Source: Pedosphaera parvula Ellin514
GTDB taxonomy: Bacteria > Verrucomicrobiota > Verrucomicrobiia > Limisphaerales > Pedosphaeraceae
Direction: 5' to 3'
DNA length: 64,000 bases
NCBI RefSeq assembly: GCF_000172555.1
Contig: NZ_ABOX02000012.1
Location: 62,001-126,000 of the forward strand
Of this stretch, positions 6,362-16,275 are shown piece by piece (position 1 is the stretch's first letter; every line of letters starts with the position of its first letter). A program made the translations under genes and the position numbers. The notes beneath the pieces were generated by a model, which was not told the origin of the DNA, did not search any database, and saw nothing but the letters and a program-made list of their open reading frames with translations.

Positions 6362-7312
6362 TTATTGCCGATCAATTGAAGCAGGCGTGATTGCCACTTT
6401 CTCCGTGCCTGGATTTCCCGATGCACCTGATTTCATGAGTGATAAATAAAAATCCTCAAGCGTCTGTTCCTGGGGACTAATTTCAAATACCGAGATATTG
6501 TTCTGCACCAGACAACGAACAATGCGGTCAGTCTGAGTCCGCTCCGAAAGGGTGATCAAGCCGTCATCCCTGTGGTTCACAATCAGCTTTTCAGCGCGCA
6601 ATAGTGTTACGGCGGCACCAAAATCGTTCACCCGCAGTCTTACCCAAGTCTCCGTTTGGCTGATTGAGGACAAAGCTCCTTCAAAAACTTTCTTCCCCTT
6701 GTTCATCACTGCTATGCGGGAACACAGCTGTTCGACTTCATTGAGCAGGTGAGACGAAAGTAAGATCGTCAATCCCATCTCTTTGTGAAGCCGTTGAATG
6801 GTTAGGCGCATCTCATGAATGCCCTCCGGGTCAAGCCCATCGCTTGGCTCATCCAAAATGAGCAATTCCGGTTTGGGAAGTAGCGCCTGCGCCAGCGCTA
6901 ATCGAGTCCGCATGCCATGGGAATACGTTTTGACCTTCGATTTCTCGCGTCCGCTCAGCCCTACCCATTCTATTACCTCACGGATGCGCTTCGGGGAGGT
7001 GGGCGCTGTGTAATGCGTCAGGATTTCCAGGTTTCGCCAGCCGCTCAGGTAATCGTAGAAAACAGGTGTTTCAAAAATCGCACCCACCTTTTGAAGTGCG
7101 AGTTGGCGATGTTTGGTCACATCATGTCCGCAAACCCGGACTTCCCCTTCAGTCGGCCAAACCTGGCCCAACATCATTCCAATGGCGGTGCTCTTCCCAG
7201 CCCCATTATGTCCGAGCAGTCCGAAGATTTCGCCTGCGGGAACCTCGAGGTCGAGGTTTTTCACCGCCTCATGCCGGCCAAATACTTTTCGGATGCCAGT
7301 AAGTCGAATCAT
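6362..7312 (-). CDS. ABC transporter ATP-binding protein
   Basis: A 316-residue single-domain ABC ATPase of the CcmA/NatA/DrrA type. Seen: Walker [10 protein letters not shown] (residues 34-42), a divergent signature YSHGM (130-134) in place of LSGGQ, as is usual in this subfamily, Walker [14 protein letters not shown] (from ~150) and the H-loop His188 (LLSSHLL). The ~80 residues after the nucleotide-binding domain form a C-terminal extension. The start codon overlaps the stop of the upstream pseudopilin gene by four bases, and the permease gene follows 5 bases downstream. Export or membrane remodelling is likely; the cargo is unknown. Confidence 0.9.
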
Positions 7313-7884
7313 TTCGTTCCCTGAACTTCGAGGAGGTTCTTGATGTGGCCATCAGCATACAGGTAATTTACCGCCTTGCTCTGGCCTCGAATAATGTGAA
7401 ATTTATCTTTGTCAAAAAACACCGGTATTTGATGAGGATTGTAGGCATTGGTAAAAACCTCCAAATGTTCAGCTTCCTCGCCATTTAGGAGAAAGTTCCA
7501 GGAATAACTGGAGCCGGTTATTTCAAATAGCTTTTGATTGTCTGAAGGGCATCGGAAAACATTCGCCGAGCTGGCGTAATTAGAGAGCACCTGCACCATG
7601 GAAGGCCCGATGGTGTTTAACAGCAAATTAGTGGACCAATCATACATCTTGGGAAGGTGATTTTCATTGTCTTGCACGTACAGCTGCAAGGCGATTCCCA
7701 GTTGATGCAGGTTGCTGAGGCAACCCGCCGAACGCCCGCTCTCCTTCGTGCGCGCTATTGCGGGAAATAGCAAGGACGCCAAAATTGCAATGATGGCTAA
7801 TACAACCAACAATTCAACCAGGGTGAAGGCCAAACGACCCGACCCGAGGGAGCTTGGTTTGCGTGGGTTGGAAAGCGGCTTCAT
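7309..7884 (-). CDS. Type II secretion-style pseudopilin (prepilin-like protein)
   Basis: A 191-residue protein with a type III/prepilin signal: a basic leader, then [25 protein letters not shown] with Phe20 at +1 and Glu24 at +5. The residue before the cleavage site is Ala19 rather than the usual Gly. The C-terminal part has the [19 protein letters not shown] and [11 protein letters not shown] patterns typical of the large verrucomicrobial/planctomycete pseudopilin families. It lies between an unknown membrane protein and an ABC transporter, with 4-base overlaps on both sides, so it is probably translated with them. No secretion ATPase or secretin genes are nearby. Confidence 0.85.
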
Positions 7885-8501
7885 CGGAAAGCGCGGCCAT
7901 TCTTCATTTGATTCTGCAATTCCTCCAGGACGGGTGCGAGTTCAGCCTTGGTTTGCGCGGAACTTTCGCCATAAAAAGTTTTCAGTCCTATCGCTCGAAC
8001 CTTCTGCTCCAACTCAGGACTCAAAACAGGTGCCCCGTTCGTGCCATAGTTACTCCCATTCTGACCACCTTGGCCGGCAGGCATCTGGCCCTCTTCTTTA
8101 AGCTTCTTCAACACATTATCGATGGTCTTTCTACGGTTGGCTTCGGGGAGCTGTTCGAAAGAGGTAAGCATCTGTTTGAAACCCGAAGGCAGCGTGGCCT
8201 CGATAAACTGCGCTTTCTCATCCTCGGTCATATCTTGGAACCAGTCTTTCCAATCCTGATCCAGTCGCCAGTGGCGTCGTTCCTCTGCCGAGAGCGCATT
8301 GATTTTGTTTGCGAGTTCCCGTAAGGCCTTCGCCCGATCGGCGGCAGAAAGTTTGGCAAAATCAACGGAATTGACATATTTCCTCAGCTTTTCCGCCGTC
8401 ATCTTGGAATTCTGAGCGATGGTATATCCTCCCCACGCCAGTAGCCATGCCGTAACAATGGCAATTCCCGCCAGTAAAATGGGGCGTGTTTTGCGATTCA
8501 T
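7881..8501 (-). CDS. Uncharacterised membrane-anchored protein
   Basis: 206 residues, not recognised. An N-terminal hydrophobic segment (about residues 8-29, [20 protein letters not shown]) suggests a single membrane anchor or uncleaved signal. The rest is highly charged and predicted helical ([29 protein letters not shown], then a [11 protein letters not shown] block), ending in a Gly/Asn-rich linker ([14 protein letters not shown]) and a short helical tail. First gene of the operon running to 5517; its stop overlaps the pseudopilin start by four bases. Conserved aromatic/acidic helices of this kind suggest a periplasmic interaction domain, which is inference only. Confidence 0.75.
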
Positions 8502-8694
8502 ATTGGCATTTTAGCGGTTCGGGCGCTTCCTCGCCATGAAAAAGTCGGCAATCCCCCCCCAAGTGCATACTACATAAGCTTGACCGGTTTCATTTTGTAC
8601 TAATGATAAGGGAAAATTTTGGAATTAGAATCTGAAGCCAACTCTAAATTATACGGCGGCTCAAGGTGTTAATCGCATTACAGATGGGCGTCCG
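8502..8694. promoter_or_regulatory. Divergent promoter region
   Basis: 193 bases between two divergent operons, the minus-strand ABC/pseudopilin operon and the plus-strand LpxB-like operon. It must contain both promoters, but I cannot define clear boxes. A run of eight C bases lies at about 8553-8560. No gene or strong hairpin is visible. Confidence 0.4.
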
Positions 8695-9879
8695 TTGCGA
8701 ATACTGATGTGCTCTGGAGAAGTCTCCGGAGACCGGCAGGCTGCGCATCTTGCGCGTACATTGCTTCTCCTCAACAGCAGCATCAGGCTTTATGGGTGCG
8801 GCGGCACACAGATGGAAAGTGCCGGTGTTGATATAAAGATAAAGACGGCACATCTTGGTTACGTTGGTTTCCAGGAATCCTTCCGCTTCACCAGACCTCT
8901 GAAAAATGCCCTCGATCAAATAGCCAAAATGATCCAGGAGGAACGGCCGGATATGGCGGTTCTAATCGATAGCGAACATTTTAACCGTTCTGTTGCCAAA
9001 CTGCTAACCCGGCATCAGATCCCTTTCATCTACTATTTCCCACCGCAAGTCTGGCTTTGGGGTAAATGGCGAGCTCGATCGGTGGCTAAACAGTCGAGGA
9101 TGATCATCCCGGCGTTTTCAGAAGAGGTGGACATTTACCGTGCCAAAGGTGGTCGCGTTCAATGGTGCGGACATCCGCTGCTTGATTTGGTCAAGCCCGA
9201 GAAGGATCACGCCAGAATTTTTGTAGAATCGGGTTTGAATCCGACCTTACAAACGATCGGTATCCTGCCGGGCAGCCGATATCAGGAACTGGAAGAACTG
9301 GGACCGTCGATGCTGGCCGCTGCCCGTCAGATCAAGGAAAGGCATCCCAAAGTTCAATTTATTCTGCCGCTCGCCGCGCCTCATCTTCTACCGGCACTAC
9401 AGAGGCAGATCGGTGAAGCATTAATGACGGAGCACGTCAAAATTATCACCTCCCACGTATATACCTGTCTGAGTCGCTGCGATGTAGTCATGCTCTCATC
9501 CGGCACCGCCACCTTGGAAGCGGCCTTGCTCGGAGTGCCAATGGTGGTTGGTTATCGCGTCACTCCGTTAACCTATTTGGTTGCAAGGCAGATTGTGAGC
9601 ACGAAATATGTCGCCATGCCGAATATCCTTCTGAGTGAAAGAGTCATTCCTGAACTTATTCAGAAGGATTTTAGCGTTAAACGCCTGGTTGCCGAGACTC
9701 TGGATATTTTCGAGAATAAGTCTCGTGCCCAGATGATTCGAAACAGGCTTCGCCAGATTCCTTCCATGCTGGGGACCGAAGGCGCCATCGCCCGGGCGGC
9801 CACCCTGATTTTAAACGAGGCATCTTCGACCGTGGCGCTGACCTGCGCACATCAAGGAGCCCAACATGCCTCGCCCTGA
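8695..9879 (+). CDS. lpxB: LpxB-like lipid-A-disaccharide synthase family protein
   Basis: Family role: joins UDP-2,3-diacylglucosamine and lipid X to give the lipid A disaccharide at the inner membrane. 394 residues from a TTG start at 8695. No in-frame ATG lies upstream; the first internal ATG (residue 5) would clip the conserved first strand. Family motifs: SGEVSGDRQAA, YYFPPQVWLWGKWRARSVAK, GHPLLDLV, ILPGSRYQELEEL, and SSGTATLEAALLGVPMVVGYR near the C-terminus. Oddity: the usual I-D-x-P-D-F-N block reads I-D-S-E-H-F-N (Asp92 to Asn97), so the second Asp, which I recall as catalytic, is His95. First gene of an operon with two acyltransferase-like genes and a P450. It may be true LpxB or a paralogue making another glycolipid. 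Confidence 0.85.
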   Translation: MRILMCSGEVSGDRQAAHLARTLLLLNSSIRLYGCGGTQMESAGVDIKIKTAHLGYVGFQESFRFTRPLKNALDQIAKMIQEERPDMAVLIDSEHFNRSVAKLLTRHQIPFIYYFPPQVWLWGKWRARSVAKQSRMIIPAFSEEVDIYRAKGGRVQWCGHPLLDLVKPEKDHARIFVESGLNPTLQTIGILPGSRYQELEELGPSMLAAARQIKERHPKVQFILPLAAPHLLPALQRQIGEALMTEHVKIITSHVYTCLSRCDVVMLSSGTATLEAALLGVPMVVGYRVTPLTYLVARQIVSTKYVAMPNILLSERVIPELIQKDFSVKRLVAETLDIFENKSRAQMIRNRLRQIPSMLGTEGAIARAATLILNEASSTVALTCAHQGAQHASP

Positions 9880-10912
9880 AAGCCAACCAGGATTAATTCA
9901 TCGCTGGCATCTGGAGCGCCTGGGGCATCCGTCCACTAAAACGAAGCCCCCACTCCCCAGGAGGTTGCTGCGATCCTGTATGGATGGATTGGCCACGGCA
10001 TTGGACGCCAGTTTTTTTAACGGTCTGAACTGTCTGCCACATAAACATGCCTTTTCGCTTTCCATGGCGGCAGGCGTTGCTCAACGTCTGGGTGCTGCCA
10101 GTCGGAGCATGACCAATATGCGCTTTGTTTTAGGGATGGAGGGGCGTTCCACGCATGACTGGAAAAGGTTGTGGGCAGAGCACCAAAGACATGTTGGAAC
10201 CACCGCCATTGAATCGATTCATTTCGGAAGCATGGACCGCGAGGAGCTTCTCGACCGCGTTCGGCTGGAAGGCGAAGACCATTTGCGTGCCGCTTTGAAT
10301 CAAGGTCGGGGAGTGATGCTCTTCCTCAATCATGTTGGCAACGTCGGTTGCATACCTGCGGCGCTCGGGCCAAGAGGTTATGATCTGTCCATCACAGGAA
10401 ACGCCATGCCCCGTCCTTACCTCGAAAAGAAAGTGACCAAACTCTACGAGCACGGAGGCGTGAAGAGAATACTGGTTGGGGAACAATTGCCCTTCAAAGC
10501 TGCTCGGATCTTTAAGCGAAACGGGATTTTCGCCACCTTCATGGATTACACAGTGGTTGAGAAGTTGAATTACTGGCTGCCTTTCGGAAACGCCGAACTC
10601 AACACCAACATTGGTCCGGCGATTTTAGCTTTGCGGAATAATGCAACGATCCTCTATGCGACCTGTCGCCGGTTGCCTCATCGGGGCCACTGTCTAACGA
10701 TCCACCGACCAGACGCATTTGCTCCAACAGGAGATACAATCCCTGATGCCTTGACGGTGACAACCAGTACCATCGATTTCATTGCACGTGAACTGCAGCT
10801 TCGCCCGGAGCAATGGTGGCCATGGGATTGCGCTCAGCTTCGCCCTAAACCGAATGTGCAGGCAGCCCAGGATATTTTTGTCAATGCATCGGTGGTTAGC
10901 CAAACTCATTGA
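9866..10912 (+). CDS. LpxL/HtrB-like lysophospholipid acyltransferase family protein 1
   Basis: 348 residues of the bacterial lauroyl/myristoyl acyltransferase family (lipid A late acyltransferases, also the PatA type). The conserved first block is MLFLNHVGNVGCI, with the expected catalytic His156. Five residues on, where the family has Asp or Glu (HX4D/E), this protein has Gly161. Later blocks (FKRNGIFATFMDYT, YWLPFGNAELNTNIGPAILALR, ILYATCRR, PEQWWPWDC) match the family fold. The gene starts 14 bases inside the end of the lpxB-like gene and overlaps the next gene at TGATG, so translation is probably coupled. No N-terminal membrane anchor is obvious. The substrate is unknown, and loss of the acidic residue leaves activity uncertain. 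Confidence 0.82.
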   Translation: MPRPESQPGLIHRWHLERLGHPSTKTKPPLPRRLLRSCMDGLATALDASFFNGLNCLPHKHAFSLSMAAGVAQRLGAASRSMTNMRFVLGMEGRSTHDWKRLWAEHQRHVGTTAIESIHFGSMDREELLDRVRLEGEDHLRAALNQGRGVMLFLNHVGNVGCIPAALGPRGYDLSITGNAMPRPYLEKKVTKLYEHGGVKRILVGEQLPFKAARIFKRNGIFATFMDYTVVEKLNYWLPFGNAELNTNIGPAILALRNNATILYATCRRLPHRGHCLTIHRPDAFAPTGDTIPDALTVTTSTIDFIARELQLRPEQWWPWDCAQLRPKPNVQAAQDIFVNASVVSQTH

Positions 10913-11919
10913 TGAAAACGGGAAGTCAGGCAGACCAGCGCGCCAAGAGTACAGATGACGCAACTGCGCAAGCTGTGGCGTCAGTTTTTTTCAGACTCTA
11001 TCTGCTGATACTTCGGCTCTTAAGCAAACTCGCAATGCCACGAGCCTTTGCTGTGTCTCTGCTCGTGAATCCCCTGCTCACTTTTCCCATTCGCCATCAA
11101 AGAAGAAGAAACTTCGCGCTGCTTTTTCCTGACCCTGCACACACTCCACAGAAGCGTCGTCAGCTCGAAAAAGATCACTTAAAATATCTCGCGTTTGTGA
11201 GGGCGGAGATGGCTCACATTTTCCTAAGCATGAAGCCCGAGGATGTTCGGCAACGATCCTCGCTTTCGGGCGGACAGCATTTGGAAGCGGCTTTATCGAA
11301 AGGTAGAGGCGTCTTGATTATAGAAGGACATTCAGGTCATTGGAACTGCACTCCGGCATTGCTGTGCGCACTCGGCTACCCGGTCACCGCTGTGATCAAT
11401 CCCAATCCTCTTCGTGGCGCCAACTTCCGAATGCTTCACGAAGGAGCCGGTAAGGCGTTGGGGATTAAGCTCGCTTTTGTTGGACAGGATGCTTATTCAT
11501 CAGCAAAGGAATCATTTCGAAACAACCAGATCTTTTATCTCAATTTTGACATCGCCGTCCGAACCAGGCACACGAAATGGTTTCCTTTTGGTAATGCTGC
11601 CATCCTTGCAGATCTTGGCCCTGCTGTTATGGCTCTGCGGCATCGGGTTCCTGTTCTCTACGCACAAAACACACTTACGGAACGCGGCGCTGAGATCACT
11701 CTGACTCCCGCAGCCGATGCCTTGTCCAGCTCCATGGAAAAGCCATCGGCAGAAAAACTCATGCATTCCTGGCTGGCCCAGTTTCAGAAAACGGTTTCAG
11801 CACAGCCTGAACAGTGGTGGGCTTTGAATTACATCGCACTGGCAGATAAAACTGTTCTGAACAATCCTGAGTTGCGCGAAGTTGATGAAACCTGCAATGC
11901 TGGCCCGAATTCGAAATGA
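10912..11919 (+). CDS. LpxL/HtrB-like lysophospholipid acyltransferase family protein 2
   Basis: 335 residues from the ATG at 10912, which overlaps the upstream stop (TGATG). A TTG one codon earlier would extend the frame but is unlikely. A paralogue of the preceding gene: the block LIIEGHSGHWNCTPA holds the expected catalytic His140, but the acidic residue of HX4(D/E) is Asn145. Further family blocks are FRNNQIFYLNFDIAVR, TKWFPFGNAAILADLGPAVMALR, VLYAQNTL and PEQWWALNY. The basic/hydrophobic N-terminus (FRLYLLILRLLSKL) may associate with the membrane. It overlaps the P450 gene by four bases. Two adjacent acyltransferases with different substitutions at the same position suggest a specialised pair. 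Confidence 0.82.
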   Translation: MKTGSQADQRAKSTDDATAQAVASVFFRLYLLILRLLSKLAMPRAFAVSLLVNPLLTFPIRHQRRRNFALLFPDPAHTPQKRRQLEKDHLKYLAFVRAEMAHIFLSMKPEDVRQRSSLSGGQHLEAALSKGRGVLIIEGHSGHWNCTPALLCALGYPVTAVINPNPLRGANFRMLHEGAGKALGIKLAFVGQDAYSSAKESFRNNQIFYLNFDIAVRTRHTKWFPFGNAAILADLGPAVMALRHRVPVLYAQNTLTERGAEITLTPAADALSSSMEKPSAEKLMHSWLAQFQKTVSAQPEQWWALNYIALADKTVLNNPELREVDETCNAGPNSK

Positions 11920-13262
11920 AGAATGCTGCTAAAGTTCCCGGACCTTCCCGACTCCAGTTGCTTCGGGACTATCCCAAAGTACGTCGCGATCTTACACGAT
12001 ACCTGGTTGAGTTGTACCAGCAACATGGCGAGACAGTATTGCTGCCCCTGATTTATCCCACATACATGGTCAGCAATCCGGCTGACATCAAATACATCCT
12101 GGTTTCCAATCCAACAAACTACCACAAGACAGGCGGACTTAGAATCGGCAAGGAACTTTTTGGAGAAGGTCTCGTGACGAGCGAAGTGCCTTTGCATACG
12201 CGCCAGCGTCGGTTGATGCAACCGATGTTTCACCGGCAGAGCATTGCCAACTTTGCCGACATCATGACCAACACCACGCACGGGTGGATCAAGAACTGGA
12301 AGGAAGATGCTACAATTAACATTGGCATGGAATTGATGCAGCTCACCTTGTCCATCGTGGGCAAGGCCCTTTTTAGCATCGATCTCGTCGCCGAAGCACA
12401 GGAGATAGGAAATGCCTTCATCACGGCACAGGTGGAGATTACCCGCATTCAAAGAGGACTGCCCCTGCCTAAATTCATTCGCACGCCTAGTCATCGTCGG
12501 TACGAGCAGGCCAGGAAGACCATCGATGGTTTTATTCACGATCTAATCAATAAGCGACGACGGGACACCAACCCGCCGGATGATTTGCTGACTCTCCTGC
12601 TGGCATCTCGCTATGAAGATGGATCGCCCATGAGCGAACAGCAAATCAGGGACGAAGCCGTAACTATCCTGATGGCCGGTCATGAAACTGTCACCAATGG
12701 CCTGTCATGGACCTTTTATTTGCTCGCCAGGCATCCAGAGATACAGGCACGTGTTTTAAAAGAAATTGAGACTGTATTGGGCCGTAGATTGCCGACAATG
12801 GCCGATCTCCCATCTTTTAAATATACGGAAATGGTGCTCGCAGAAGCGTTCCGCATTTTTCCGCCAGCGTGGATTCTGGCAAGAAGGGTTTTAAAGGAAG
12901 ATAACCTGCCAAGCGGCCTGACACTTCCAGAGGGAAGCGAAGTTATTTTGGTGCAGTTTGTCTGCCATCGAAATGAAAGGTATTTCCCGGACCCGGAGCA
13001 GTTCAACCCGGAGCGATTTAATCCCGAGGTCAAAAAGGAATGGCCACAATTCGCCTATTTCCCGTTCGGGGCCGGTCCCCGTTTTTGTATTGGTGAATCC
13101 TTTGCCAGGATGGAAGCAATCTTGTTAATTACCACCATTCTTCAGCAGTTCAATTTGGAATTGGTTCCTGGACAGGACATTGTGCCTGAGCCGCTGATTA
13201 CGCTTCGTCCACGAAATGGCATTTTGCTGAAGTTAACGAGGCATGAACGCCAAAATCTTTAA
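11916..13262 (+). CDS. Cytochrome P450
   Basis: 448-residue soluble bacterial P450. Seen: the I-helix motif AGHETVT, the K-helix E-x-x-R (EAFR), the PERF meander (FNPERFNPE), and the haem-binding loop FPFGAGPRFCIGESFARMEA with Cys391 as the axial thiolate ligand. The N-terminus (VPGPSRLQLLRDYPKVRRDLTRYLVELYQQHGETV) resembles the fatty-acid-hydroxylase-like CYP102/CYP4 clan. It overlaps the second acyltransferase by four bases and is the last gene of the operon. No ferredoxin or reductase gene adjoins it, so electrons must come from elsewhere. The context suggests hydroxylation of an acyl chain or lipid; this is inference. Confidence 0.93.
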   Translation: MKNAAKVPGPSRLQLLRDYPKVRRDLTRYLVELYQQHGETVLLPLIYPTYMVSNPADIKYILVSNPTNYHKTGGLRIGKELFGEGLVTSEVPLHTRQRRLMQPMFHRQSIANFADIMTNTTHGWIKNWKEDATINIGMELMQLTLSIVGKALFSIDLVAEAQEIGNAFITAQVEITRIQRGLPLPKFIRTPSHRRYEQARKTIDGFIHDLINKRRRDTNPPDDLLTLLLASRYEDGSPMSEQQIRDEAVTILMAGHETVTNGLSWTFYLLARHPEIQARVLKEIETVLGRRLPTMADLPSFKYTEMVLAEAFRIFPPAWILARRVLKEDNLPSGLTLPEGSEVILVQFVCHRNERYFPDPEQFNPERFNPEVKKEWPQFAYFPFGAGPRFCIGESFARMEAILLITTILQQFNLELVPGQDIVPEPLITLRPRNGILLKLTRHERQNL

Positions 13263-13335: not shown

Positions 13336-16275
13336 ATGTTCGTCACCGAAACACCTGCTAAACATGATCATCAAAGCCGATCCAGCAACGAGCAATCCTC
13401 GAAGGCTGTGCTCTCCAACACTCATTCGCTGTTGGAGCCTGATTCATTTGTTCCGCGGCATATCGGGCCAAGCTCCAATGAAACACGTGAAATGTTGGCC
13501 GCGCTTGGCTTTAAGGAACTCGACGAACTGATCAATACAGTTGTTCCCCAACAGATTCAGCTTAAGCGATCACTCCATTTGCCGGCCTCCCGCGGGGAGC
13601 ATCACGTGCTCACGGAATTAAAAGCGATTGCTTCGCAAAATCAGGTCTTCCGTTCCTTCATTGGAATGGGATACCACGACTGCATTACTCCACCAGTCAT
13701 CCAGCGGAACGTCCTGGAGAACCCTGGTTGGTACACTCAATATACGCCCTACCAAGCTGAGATTGCGCAGGGACGGCTCGAAGCCTTGCTCAATTTTCAG
13801 ACCATGATCGTGGATCTTACCGGCCTGGATATTGCCAATGCCTCGCTACTGGACGAAGGCACTGCGGCAGCCGAGGCGATGCACATGTGTAATGCAATCA
13901 AGGCTGACGGGAACGTTTTCTTCGTCTCCTCCGAGTGTCATCCCCAAACCATTGATATTGTAAAAACCCGCGCGCTGCCGCTGGGTGTGGAGGTGGTGAT
14001 TGGAGATCATCGAACCTTCCCGGTGGATGAGAAGGTGTTCGGCGTTCTCGTGCAGTATCCGGGAACATTTGGGGACATCCATAACTATTCCGAATTCTTC
14101 AAGCAGGCGCACGCGGCAGGGGCTCTGACGGTTGTTGCTGCCGACCTTCTGAGCTTGACCTTGCTTCGGCCTCCTGGTGAATTTGGGGCGGATATTGCCA
14201 TTGGCAGCGCGCAACGATTCGGTGTTCCCCTCGGTTATGGCGGACCTCATGCTGCCTATTTCGCCACTCGTGACGCATACAAGCGACAAATGCCCGGACG
14301 AATTGTAGGTGTGTCCAAGGATTCACGGGGACGGCCCGCCCTGCGCCTCTCCCTGCAAACGCGTGAGCAACACATCCGCCGTGAAAAAGCCACAAGCAAT
14401 ATTTGCACGGCGCAGGCCTTGCTCGCGAACATGGCATCTCTTTATGCAGTTTACCACGGCCCGGAGGGTTTGAAACGAATTGCCCAACGTCTCCGGTTCC
14501 TAACGCAGATTCTGGCCAAGGGGTTGGAACGCCTTGGATACACGGTGCGCACCTCCTCCTTTTTTGATACCATCCAAATTGATCTTGGCAAAAAGACTGC
14601 GGCCGAAATTACCAAGGTTGCTGAAACGCATCGGATGAATTTCCGATACATTGATGCCCATTCCATCGGCATTTCACTTGATGAAACCACGATGGAAAAA
14701 GACTTGGTTGATCTCTTCCATCTCTTTAACGGCGGCAAAGCTCCAATGTTTTCTCTCACCGAGTTGGCTGCTGAGGTGAACATCGAATATCCTGCCACGC
14801 TCACTCGGACATCGGCTTATTTGCAGCATCCGGTTTTCAACCGTTATCATAGTGAAACAGAAATGCTGCGATACTTGCGCCGACTGGAATCTCGAGACCT
14901 CTCCTTGACTACATCCATGATCCCCCTGGGTTCATGCACGATGAAGCTCAATGCGACCGTTGAGATGTTTCCGGTGTCCTGGCCGGAGTTTAATCGCATC
15001 CATCCGTTTGCCCCGGTTCGCCAGACGAAGGGATACCAGATTCTGTTCCAGCAACTGGAAGATTGGTTGGCTGAAATCACCGGCTTTGCTGGAATTTCAT
15101 TACAACCAAACGCTGGCTCGCAAGGTGAATACGCCGGATTATTGGTGATTCGTGCCTATCACCAGGATCGCGGACAGGGGCATCGTGATATTTGCCTGAT
15201 TCCGCAATCCGCTCATGGAACCAATCCCGCCAGCGCTGTCATGGCCGGAATGAAAGTTGTTGCCGTCGCCTGTGACCAGGAGGGTAATATTGATGTCGCC
15301 GACCTCAAAGCCAAAGCCGAGGCAAATAAGGAAACTTTGGCGGCATTGATGGTTACATATCCTTCCACACACGGAGTGTTTGAAGAAACCATTCTTGAAA
15401 TCTGCCAGATCGTGCATGCCAATGGCGGACAGGTTTACATGGACGGCGCGAATATGAACGCGCAGGTCGGCATTTGCCGGCCAGCCGATATGGGCGCAGA
15501 TGTATGCCATTTAAATTTGCACAAAACGTTCTGCATTCCCCACGGCGGCGGTGGTCCTGGTATGGGACCTATTGGGGTGGCTGAACATCTCGTCCCTTTT
15601 CTACCCGGGCATGCAGTGGTGAAGCTCGGCGGTGAAAATCCCATCGGAGCCGTTTCCGCAGCGCCTTGGGGCAGTGCCAGCATTCTGCCTATCTCCTGGG
15701 TTTATATCGCAGCCATGGGTCCCGCAGGTTTAACTCAGGCGACCAAGATTGCGATTCTCAACGCCAATTACATCGCAAAGTGCCTCGAGTCTTATTTCCC
15801 CGTTCTTTACAAGGGACATGGCAATCTGGTTGCGCACGAATGCATCCTGGATTTGCGTGAATTTAAGAGCGTCACGGTGGAGGATGTGGCGAAGCGGTTG
15901 ATGGATTATGGTTTTCATGCGCCCACGATTTCCTGGCCTGTGCCCGGCACCATGATGGTCGAGCCAACTGAAAGTGAGTCCAAGGAAGAGTTGGATCGAT
16001 TCTGCAAGGCAATGATCGGCATTCATGCCGAAATCCAGGCCATTGAATCCGGCATGGTAGACAAGCAGAACAACCTGCTTAAGAACGCACCCCACACTGC
16101 GGATATGCTGGCCAGCGAGAATTGGGACCATCCTTATTCCCGGGAACAGGCCTGCTATCCTGCCCAGTGGTTGCACGAATACAAGTTCTGGCCTTTCGTC
16201 GGCCGCATTGACAACGTTTACGGGGACCGAAACCTCGTTTGCTCCTGCATCGGCATGGATGCTTACACTTCCTGA
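13336..16275 (+). CDS. gcvP: Glycine dehydrogenase (decarboxylating), P-protein
   Basis: PLP enzyme of the glycine cleavage system: it decarboxylates glycine and passes the aminomethyl group to the lipoyl H-protein. 979 residues, the fused full-length form with both halves in one chain. Seen: [21 protein letters not shown] at the N-terminus, the glycine-rich loop [13 protein letters not shown], and the PLP lysine in LNLHKTF (Lys730). The start ATG at 13336 leaves ~25 extra residues before the conserved FVPRHIG. gcvT and gcvH are not in the window. The 73-base gap after the P450 gene is too short for a glycine riboswitch, and none is visible. Convergent with the following gene. Confidence 0.97.

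Follow-up and report, generated by a model that had tools for sequence, protein, structure and literature searches.

A tight group of four same-strand open reading frames in the genome of Pedosphaera parvula Ellin514 (positions 8695-13262 of the window, i.e. of the whole 64,000-nucleotide stretch of DNA analysed here) encodes an LpxB-family glycosyltransferase (LpxB2), two PF03279 acyltransferases (AT1 and AT2) and a cytochrome P450, and probably serves to build or modify an additional, oxidised glycolipid of the membrane, so far undescribed. In its specific form our reading, to which we give an even chance of being right, is that of an accessory cassette working beside ordinary lipid A synthesis and yielding, as a second glycolipid, an acyl-glucosamine disaccharide that receives acyl chains from VexE-like enzymes and undergoes oxidation by the P450. 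In its favour speak the separate ordinary lpx genes, the placement of LpxB2 outside the LpxB clade of its host order, its polar patch, the loss of the E137/R169 pair from the acyltransferases, the VexE precedent, the behaviour of the cassette as a unit and purifying selection; against it speak the cost of the E137A substitution, the lack of a supply, transport or redox gene in the operon, and P450 relatives that do not form a single substrate class.

The genes follow one another on the plus strand in the order LpxB2 (8695..9879), AT1 (9866..10912), AT2 (10909..11919) and P450 (11916..13262). LpxB2 and AT1 overlap by 14 bases, AT1 and AT2 by 1 base (TGATG, with the AT2 ATG at 10912, on the stop codon of AT1, as its likely start), and AT2 and P450 by 4 bases (ATGA). 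The start of LpxB2 is uncertain: it may be the TTG at 8695 or a non-standard codon farther upstream, where the frame is open from 8629, and the homology with LpxB2 of a congeneric genome (G504) runs on upstream of this TTG. These junctions, together with the family matches, the order and spacing kept in two other genomes and purifying selection, bear out the tight operon with overlapping stops and starts given in the preliminary description, and confirm it as real, far above chance. Both flanking genes, a divergent one with no Pfam match on the left (7881..8501, minus strand) and a gcvP-like one on the right (13336..16275, plus strand), lie outside the cassette and serve as markers of its insertion site. 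Since the G+C content of the cassette resembles that of its neighbours, composition does not support recent foreign DNA. The four-gene operon includes no dedicated substrate-supply gene, no transporter and no redox partner gene.

A genome-wide search (7.41 Mb in 102 contigs) for a further lpxB and a canonical lpxL, as the preliminary description had proposed, identified both: a second, ordinary lpxB on contig 60, adjoining a gene for a Gfo/Idh/MocA oxidoreductase, and a canonical lpxK-lpxL-heptosyltransferase cluster on contig 52. LpxB2 is thereby ruled out as the sole lpxB of the genome, a possibility that had been held to speak against an unusual product. Another, ordinary lpxB is present in 4/4 genomes with LpxB2 (the window's genome, G504, G503 from the same family and the gammaproteobacterial G706). 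Therefore, the lipid A pathway lies elsewhere, and the four genes form an accessory cassette. The pairing of lpxB with a Gfo/Idh/MocA oxidoreductase gene is also annotated in Legionella.

LpxB2 belongs to the lipid A disaccharide synthase family (PF02684, 1.3e-77) and matches the TIGR00215 lpxB equivalog over its full length (259.4 bits; cut-off 190.25). The roles of the active-site residues of E. coli LpxB, by which we number, have been described in a structure paper (PMC5785501); E. coli LpxB also requires a hydrophobic patch for binding to the membrane or the substrate. All eight catalytic or UDP-binding residues checked (E15, S17, D98, S200, R201, T277, E281 and N316) are present in 4/4 LpxB2 proteins, with D98, D92 in LpxB2 itself, conserved in all. 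Thus, the claim that the glycosyltransferase and both acyltransferases are non-canonical at key positions has to be rejected for LpxB2, and stands for AT1 and AT2, both of which deviate from the HX4(D/E) motif. What differs in LpxB2 is the membrane patch, in which V66, V68, L69, L72, L75 and L76 are replaced by Q, S, F/A/S, T/A/S, L/I and K/H/S, respectively; the mean hydropathy of these six positions is -0.1 to -0.5, whereas it ranges from +0.5 to +3.9 in the 36 remaining LpxBs, and the patch is the least hydrophobic among the 40 LpxBs compared. With the catalytic residues kept and the patch polar, the chemistry of LpxB2 looks ordinary, while its lipid-facing surface does not. In the phylogenetic tree LpxB2 is placed outside the host order's own LpxB clade (100 SH-aLRT), so that it was not recently copied from the Verrucomicrobial lpxB; the tree connects it only weakly with gammaproteobacterial LpxB (83 SH-aLRT, with long branches). 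Compared with known LpxB, it thus shares the full-length match above the cut-off and the eight catalytic residues, and differs in being an extra copy with a polar patch and with PF03279 and P450 genes as neighbours instead of other lpx genes.

AT1 and AT2 are members of PF03279 (Lip_A_acyltrans; 7.6e-17, 61.9 bits and 7.4e-14, 52.1 bits, respectively; cut-off 22.3), and both fall far under the cut-offs of the NCBIfam LpxL/LpxM/LpxP models (at most 38 bits vs 248 for AT1, 28 bits vs 336-363 for AT2). The best structural matches of their AlphaFold models (pLDDT 75 for AT1 and 84 for AT2) are LpxM (5kn7/5knk) and PatA (5oce/5f2t), and with LpxL/LpxM and PatA they share the PF03279 domain, the fold and the equivalents of H132 and D200 of LpxL. 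In an alignment of 45 sequences anchored on E. coli LpxL this His/Asp pair is kept in 45/45 (H156/D227 in AT1, H141/D214 in AT2), while the E137/R169 equivalents that LpxL and LpxM possess are replaced by Gly/Tyr in AT1 (G161 of its HX4G motif) and by Asn/Gly in AT2 (N146 of its HX4N motif). AT1, AT2 and one protein from genome G624, which has Trp at the E137 position, form a single clade (99 SH-aLRT) apart from the other PF03279 proteins compared, and in this clade H132 and D200 are kept in 8/8 sequences and E137 and R169 are both lost in 8/8. The E137/R169 pair is complete in 30 of the 45 sequences, 13 lack both residues and 2 are mismatched, counts which do not amount to a probability, because the sequences are related and reflect about two independent losses. 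The acid is lost too (Ala or Val), mostly together with its Arg partner, in another Verrucomicrobial PF03279 group. An additional PF03279 domain, fused to an MMPL exporter, is encoded on contig 11.

The joint loss fits the description of LpxM, in which H122/D192 and E127/R159 are regarded as two separate dyads (PMC6286764). The E137A substitution costs E. coli LpxL about 3000-fold in activity (PMC6286764), and this severity means that AT1 and AT2 could be weak or inactive. However, VexE, an enzyme of Vi antigen synthesis, carries Tyr in place of the acid and is nevertheless active, requiring the His and the distal Asp (PMC9597891), so that the loss of E137 need not mean dead enzymes; judging from the conserved residues and this precedent, AT1 and AT2 are more likely active than dead. 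The likeness to VexE is one of residue pattern (an LPLAT-type protein with a non-acidic sixth position of HX4(D/E) and His and distal Asp kept), and the product of VexE is a glycolipid other than lipid A, the Vi antigen anchor (PMC9597891). VexE differs in a TPR domain preceding the acyltransferase domain, where AT1 and AT2 (about 340 residues) exhibit only PF03279 in Pfam, in having Tyr in place of Gly or Asn, and in its association with a capsule, genes for which are missing from the operon.

The main rival of the accessory glycolipid is a modification of the cell's own lipid A, in which LpxB2 would make an alternative disaccharide from the usual precursors, AT1 and AT2 would attach secondary chains of an unusual kind and the P450 would hydroxylate an acyl chain; we consider it doubtful. 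The canonical lipid A genes would be available as a source of precursors, and LpxB2 is above the equivalog cut-off and keeps all catalytic residues checked, but the modification of lipid A needs no second lpxB, and the lipid-binding patch of LpxB2 is unlike that of all ordinary LpxBs compared. Similarly, AT1 and AT2 would be odd secondary acyltransferases, being under every LpxL/LpxM cut-off and devoid of the E/R pair typical of such enzymes. Hydroxylation is a known modification of lipid A, carried out by the dioxygenase LpxO (PMC6963906); the P450 is possibly analogous to this Pseudomonas hydroxylase in oxidising the acyl chain of a glucosamine lipid, although LpxO, as a dioxygenase, is not homologous to P450s.

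The cassette P450 is a clear member of PF00067 (286 bits, 6.8e-85) with intact haem-binding (FGAGPRFCIG at 384), ExxR (EAFR at 310) and I-helix AGxxT (AGHET at 254) motifs. It reaches no NCBIfam P450 model cut-off, which would have assigned it to a subfamily of known substrate, and the nearest solved structures spread over the CYP170, CYP46, CYP97, CYP4 and CYP102 types, without indicating a single substrate class; relatives in NCBIfam and among the solved structures include enzymes of secondary metabolism. Its orthologues (77% and 65% identity) were found only within the cassette. Relatives at 30-41% identity occur at other loci in about 20/313 genomes of the order, with no LpxB or AT gene in their short flanks.

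Orthologues of LpxB2 and AT1 are confined to 3/320 genomes of the host order, namely the window's genome, G504 (72% and 69% identity, respectively) and G503 (65% and 62%). The cassette proteins of the latter two are 48-77% identical to those of the window, gene order and tight spacing are kept, and the flanks are also alike, with the G503 contig stopping just past P450. The preliminary description had proposed to look for this gene order in Verrucomicrobiota and took unconserved neighbours as evidence against its idea; order and neighbours are conserved in relatives, but over a range far narrower than Verrucomicrobiota, with a two-gene gammaproteobacterial version in addition. Five other members of the host family lack the cassette, among them G502, from the genus of G503. 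The same left neighbour is found in G504 and G503, and in G502 and G501 it lies beside gcvP, separated from it by 246 and about 418 bases, respectively; these uninterrupted junctions indicate that the cassette was gained or lost in one piece. The gammaproteobacterial version, on contig L090 of a metagenome-assembled genome, comprises LpxB2 (61% identity) and AT1 (51%), with neither AT2 nor P450 at the site, and the P450s encoded elsewhere in the same genome reach no more than 35% identity with that of the cassette. A mis-binned contig is unlikely, and L090 is very probably gammaproteobacterial, because its UvrB shares 69.5% identity with that of Pseudomonas. The LpxB2 and acyltransferase trees agree in grouping the gammaproteobacterial copy with G503, inside the cassette set, which is consistent with a transfer of LpxB2-AT1 between phyla. 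No other copy was found in a sample of 396 genomes from the order of the gammaproteobacterium, and no plasmid record matched AT1; the scan of the whole collection used two very specific peptide patterns only, so that the occurrence outside the host order is under-sampled.

The patchy, cross-phylum occurrence resembles secondary metabolism and, with the secondary-metabolite enzymes among the P450 relatives, allows for a different acylated product, in which case LpxB2 would have switched both its nucleotide sugar and its acceptor, and a small lipid or secondary metabolite would be tailored by the P450 and the acyltransferases. The same kinds of genes, for a glycosyltransferase, acyltransferases and P450s, make up the fungal clusters for cellobiose lipids (ustilagic acid), whose product is an oxidised glycolipid; the enzymes and the organism are unrelated, and the cassette shares no cluster ancestry with them. 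We find such a product unlikely: in its UDP-binding and catalytic residues LpxB2 agrees with enzymes that use UDP-diacylglucosamine, and a synthase for a different backbone is missing from the operon.

In comparisons of the window with G504 or G503, all four genes exhibit pS of 0.69-0.83 and pN of 0.15-0.37; as synonymous sites are near saturation and amino-acid changes are limited, all four are under purifying selection, and none is decaying. It is therefore very unlikely that the two acyltransferases are relics devoid of catalysis, or have a regulatory role in binding lipids, leaving LpxB2 and P450 as the functional part, as the loss of the E137 and R169 equivalents from both and the heavy loss of activity of E. 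coli LpxL with E137A (PMC6286764) might suggest, given also the invariant H132/D200 pair, the VexE precedent (PMC9597891) and the retention of AT1 as the sole partner of LpxB2 in the gammaproteobacterium.

According to the accessory-glycolipid reading, LpxB2 would use an acylated UDP-glucosamine as donor and an acyl-sugar as acceptor, in the manner of LpxB, which joins UDP-2,3-diacylglucosamine and lipid X, as its residues predict, while its altered lipid- or membrane-binding face suggests a different acceptor. AT1 and AT2 would then attach acyl chains by means of the His/Asp pair alone, like VexE and PatA, and the P450, judging from its intact motifs, would act last, oxidising either one of the acyl chains or the completed lipid. 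LpxB2-AT1 may be the older core, and AT2 and P450, seen only in the Pedosphaera family, a later addition, because they are absent from the gammaproteobacterial locus. We propose, more tentatively than for the cassette itself, that some Verrucomicrobiota possess, beside lipid A, a class of P450-oxidised acyl-glucosamine disaccharide lipids, made by His/Asp-only acyltransferases and a horizontally moved LpxB-acyltransferase core that occurs without P450 in a gammaproteobacterium as well.

In the open-access literature we found neither a P450-lpxB operon nor a description of an lpxB paralogue, in agreement with the earlier impression that a P450 beside lipid A-type enzymes is an unfamiliar arrangement; passages of a survey on how the lipid A genes evolved list lpxA, lpxD, lpxH and lpxL as duplicated, and not lpxB. 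The acyltransferases offer a natural test of the mechanism of the LpxL family, since E137 and R169 covary while H132 and D200 are invariant, which separates the two dyads proposed for LpxM. If our reading is true, the Raetz lipid A machinery would have been copied and re-aimed at a second glycolipid, with the oxygen chemistry of a P450, in bacteria about whose outer membrane lipids little is known.

The reading frame of LpxB2, the glycosyltransferase encoded by the first gene of the cassette, stays open 5' of the TTG codon (window 8629-8695), and sequence comparison revealed that the translation of this stretch in the LpxB2 frame is similar to the N-terminus from the same-genus relative G504. 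This upstream open frame contains no ATG, GTG or TTG start; translation may begin at the TTG itself or at an ATT near 8677. In the gammaproteobacterial LpxB2-AT1 version (contig L090), a short-chain dehydrogenase gene (7078-7854) lies 66 bases upstream in the same direction and is possibly its third member.

Elsewhere in the P. parvula genome, the ordinary lpxB on contig C60 directly follows a Gfo/Idh/MocA gene (locus L039, 10272-12914), the same arrangement as in Legionella (L113); the product of that gene may resemble GnnA, an oxidoreductase associated with 3-aminoglucosamine lipid A. Contig C11 encodes a 1120-residue fusion protein (L041, 7123-10485) in which an MMPL exporter carries a C-terminal PF03279 acyltransferase domain, HX4E motif intact. 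An acyl-ligase-like gene lies nearby, and the locus resembles a cluster of the aryl-polyene type or another lipid-linked kind.

A third member of the AT1/AT2 clade, from genome G624, exhibits HX4W (L055, 10133-11110); its gene adjoins MacB-like ABC transporter genes, with neither LpxB nor P450 beside it. A distinct Verrucomicrobial PF03279 group (L017, L018, L020, L026, L031, L034) has Ala or Val in place of the HX4(D/E) acid, and most of its members have lost the partner Arg as well, a second instance of the change found in the AT1/AT2 clade.
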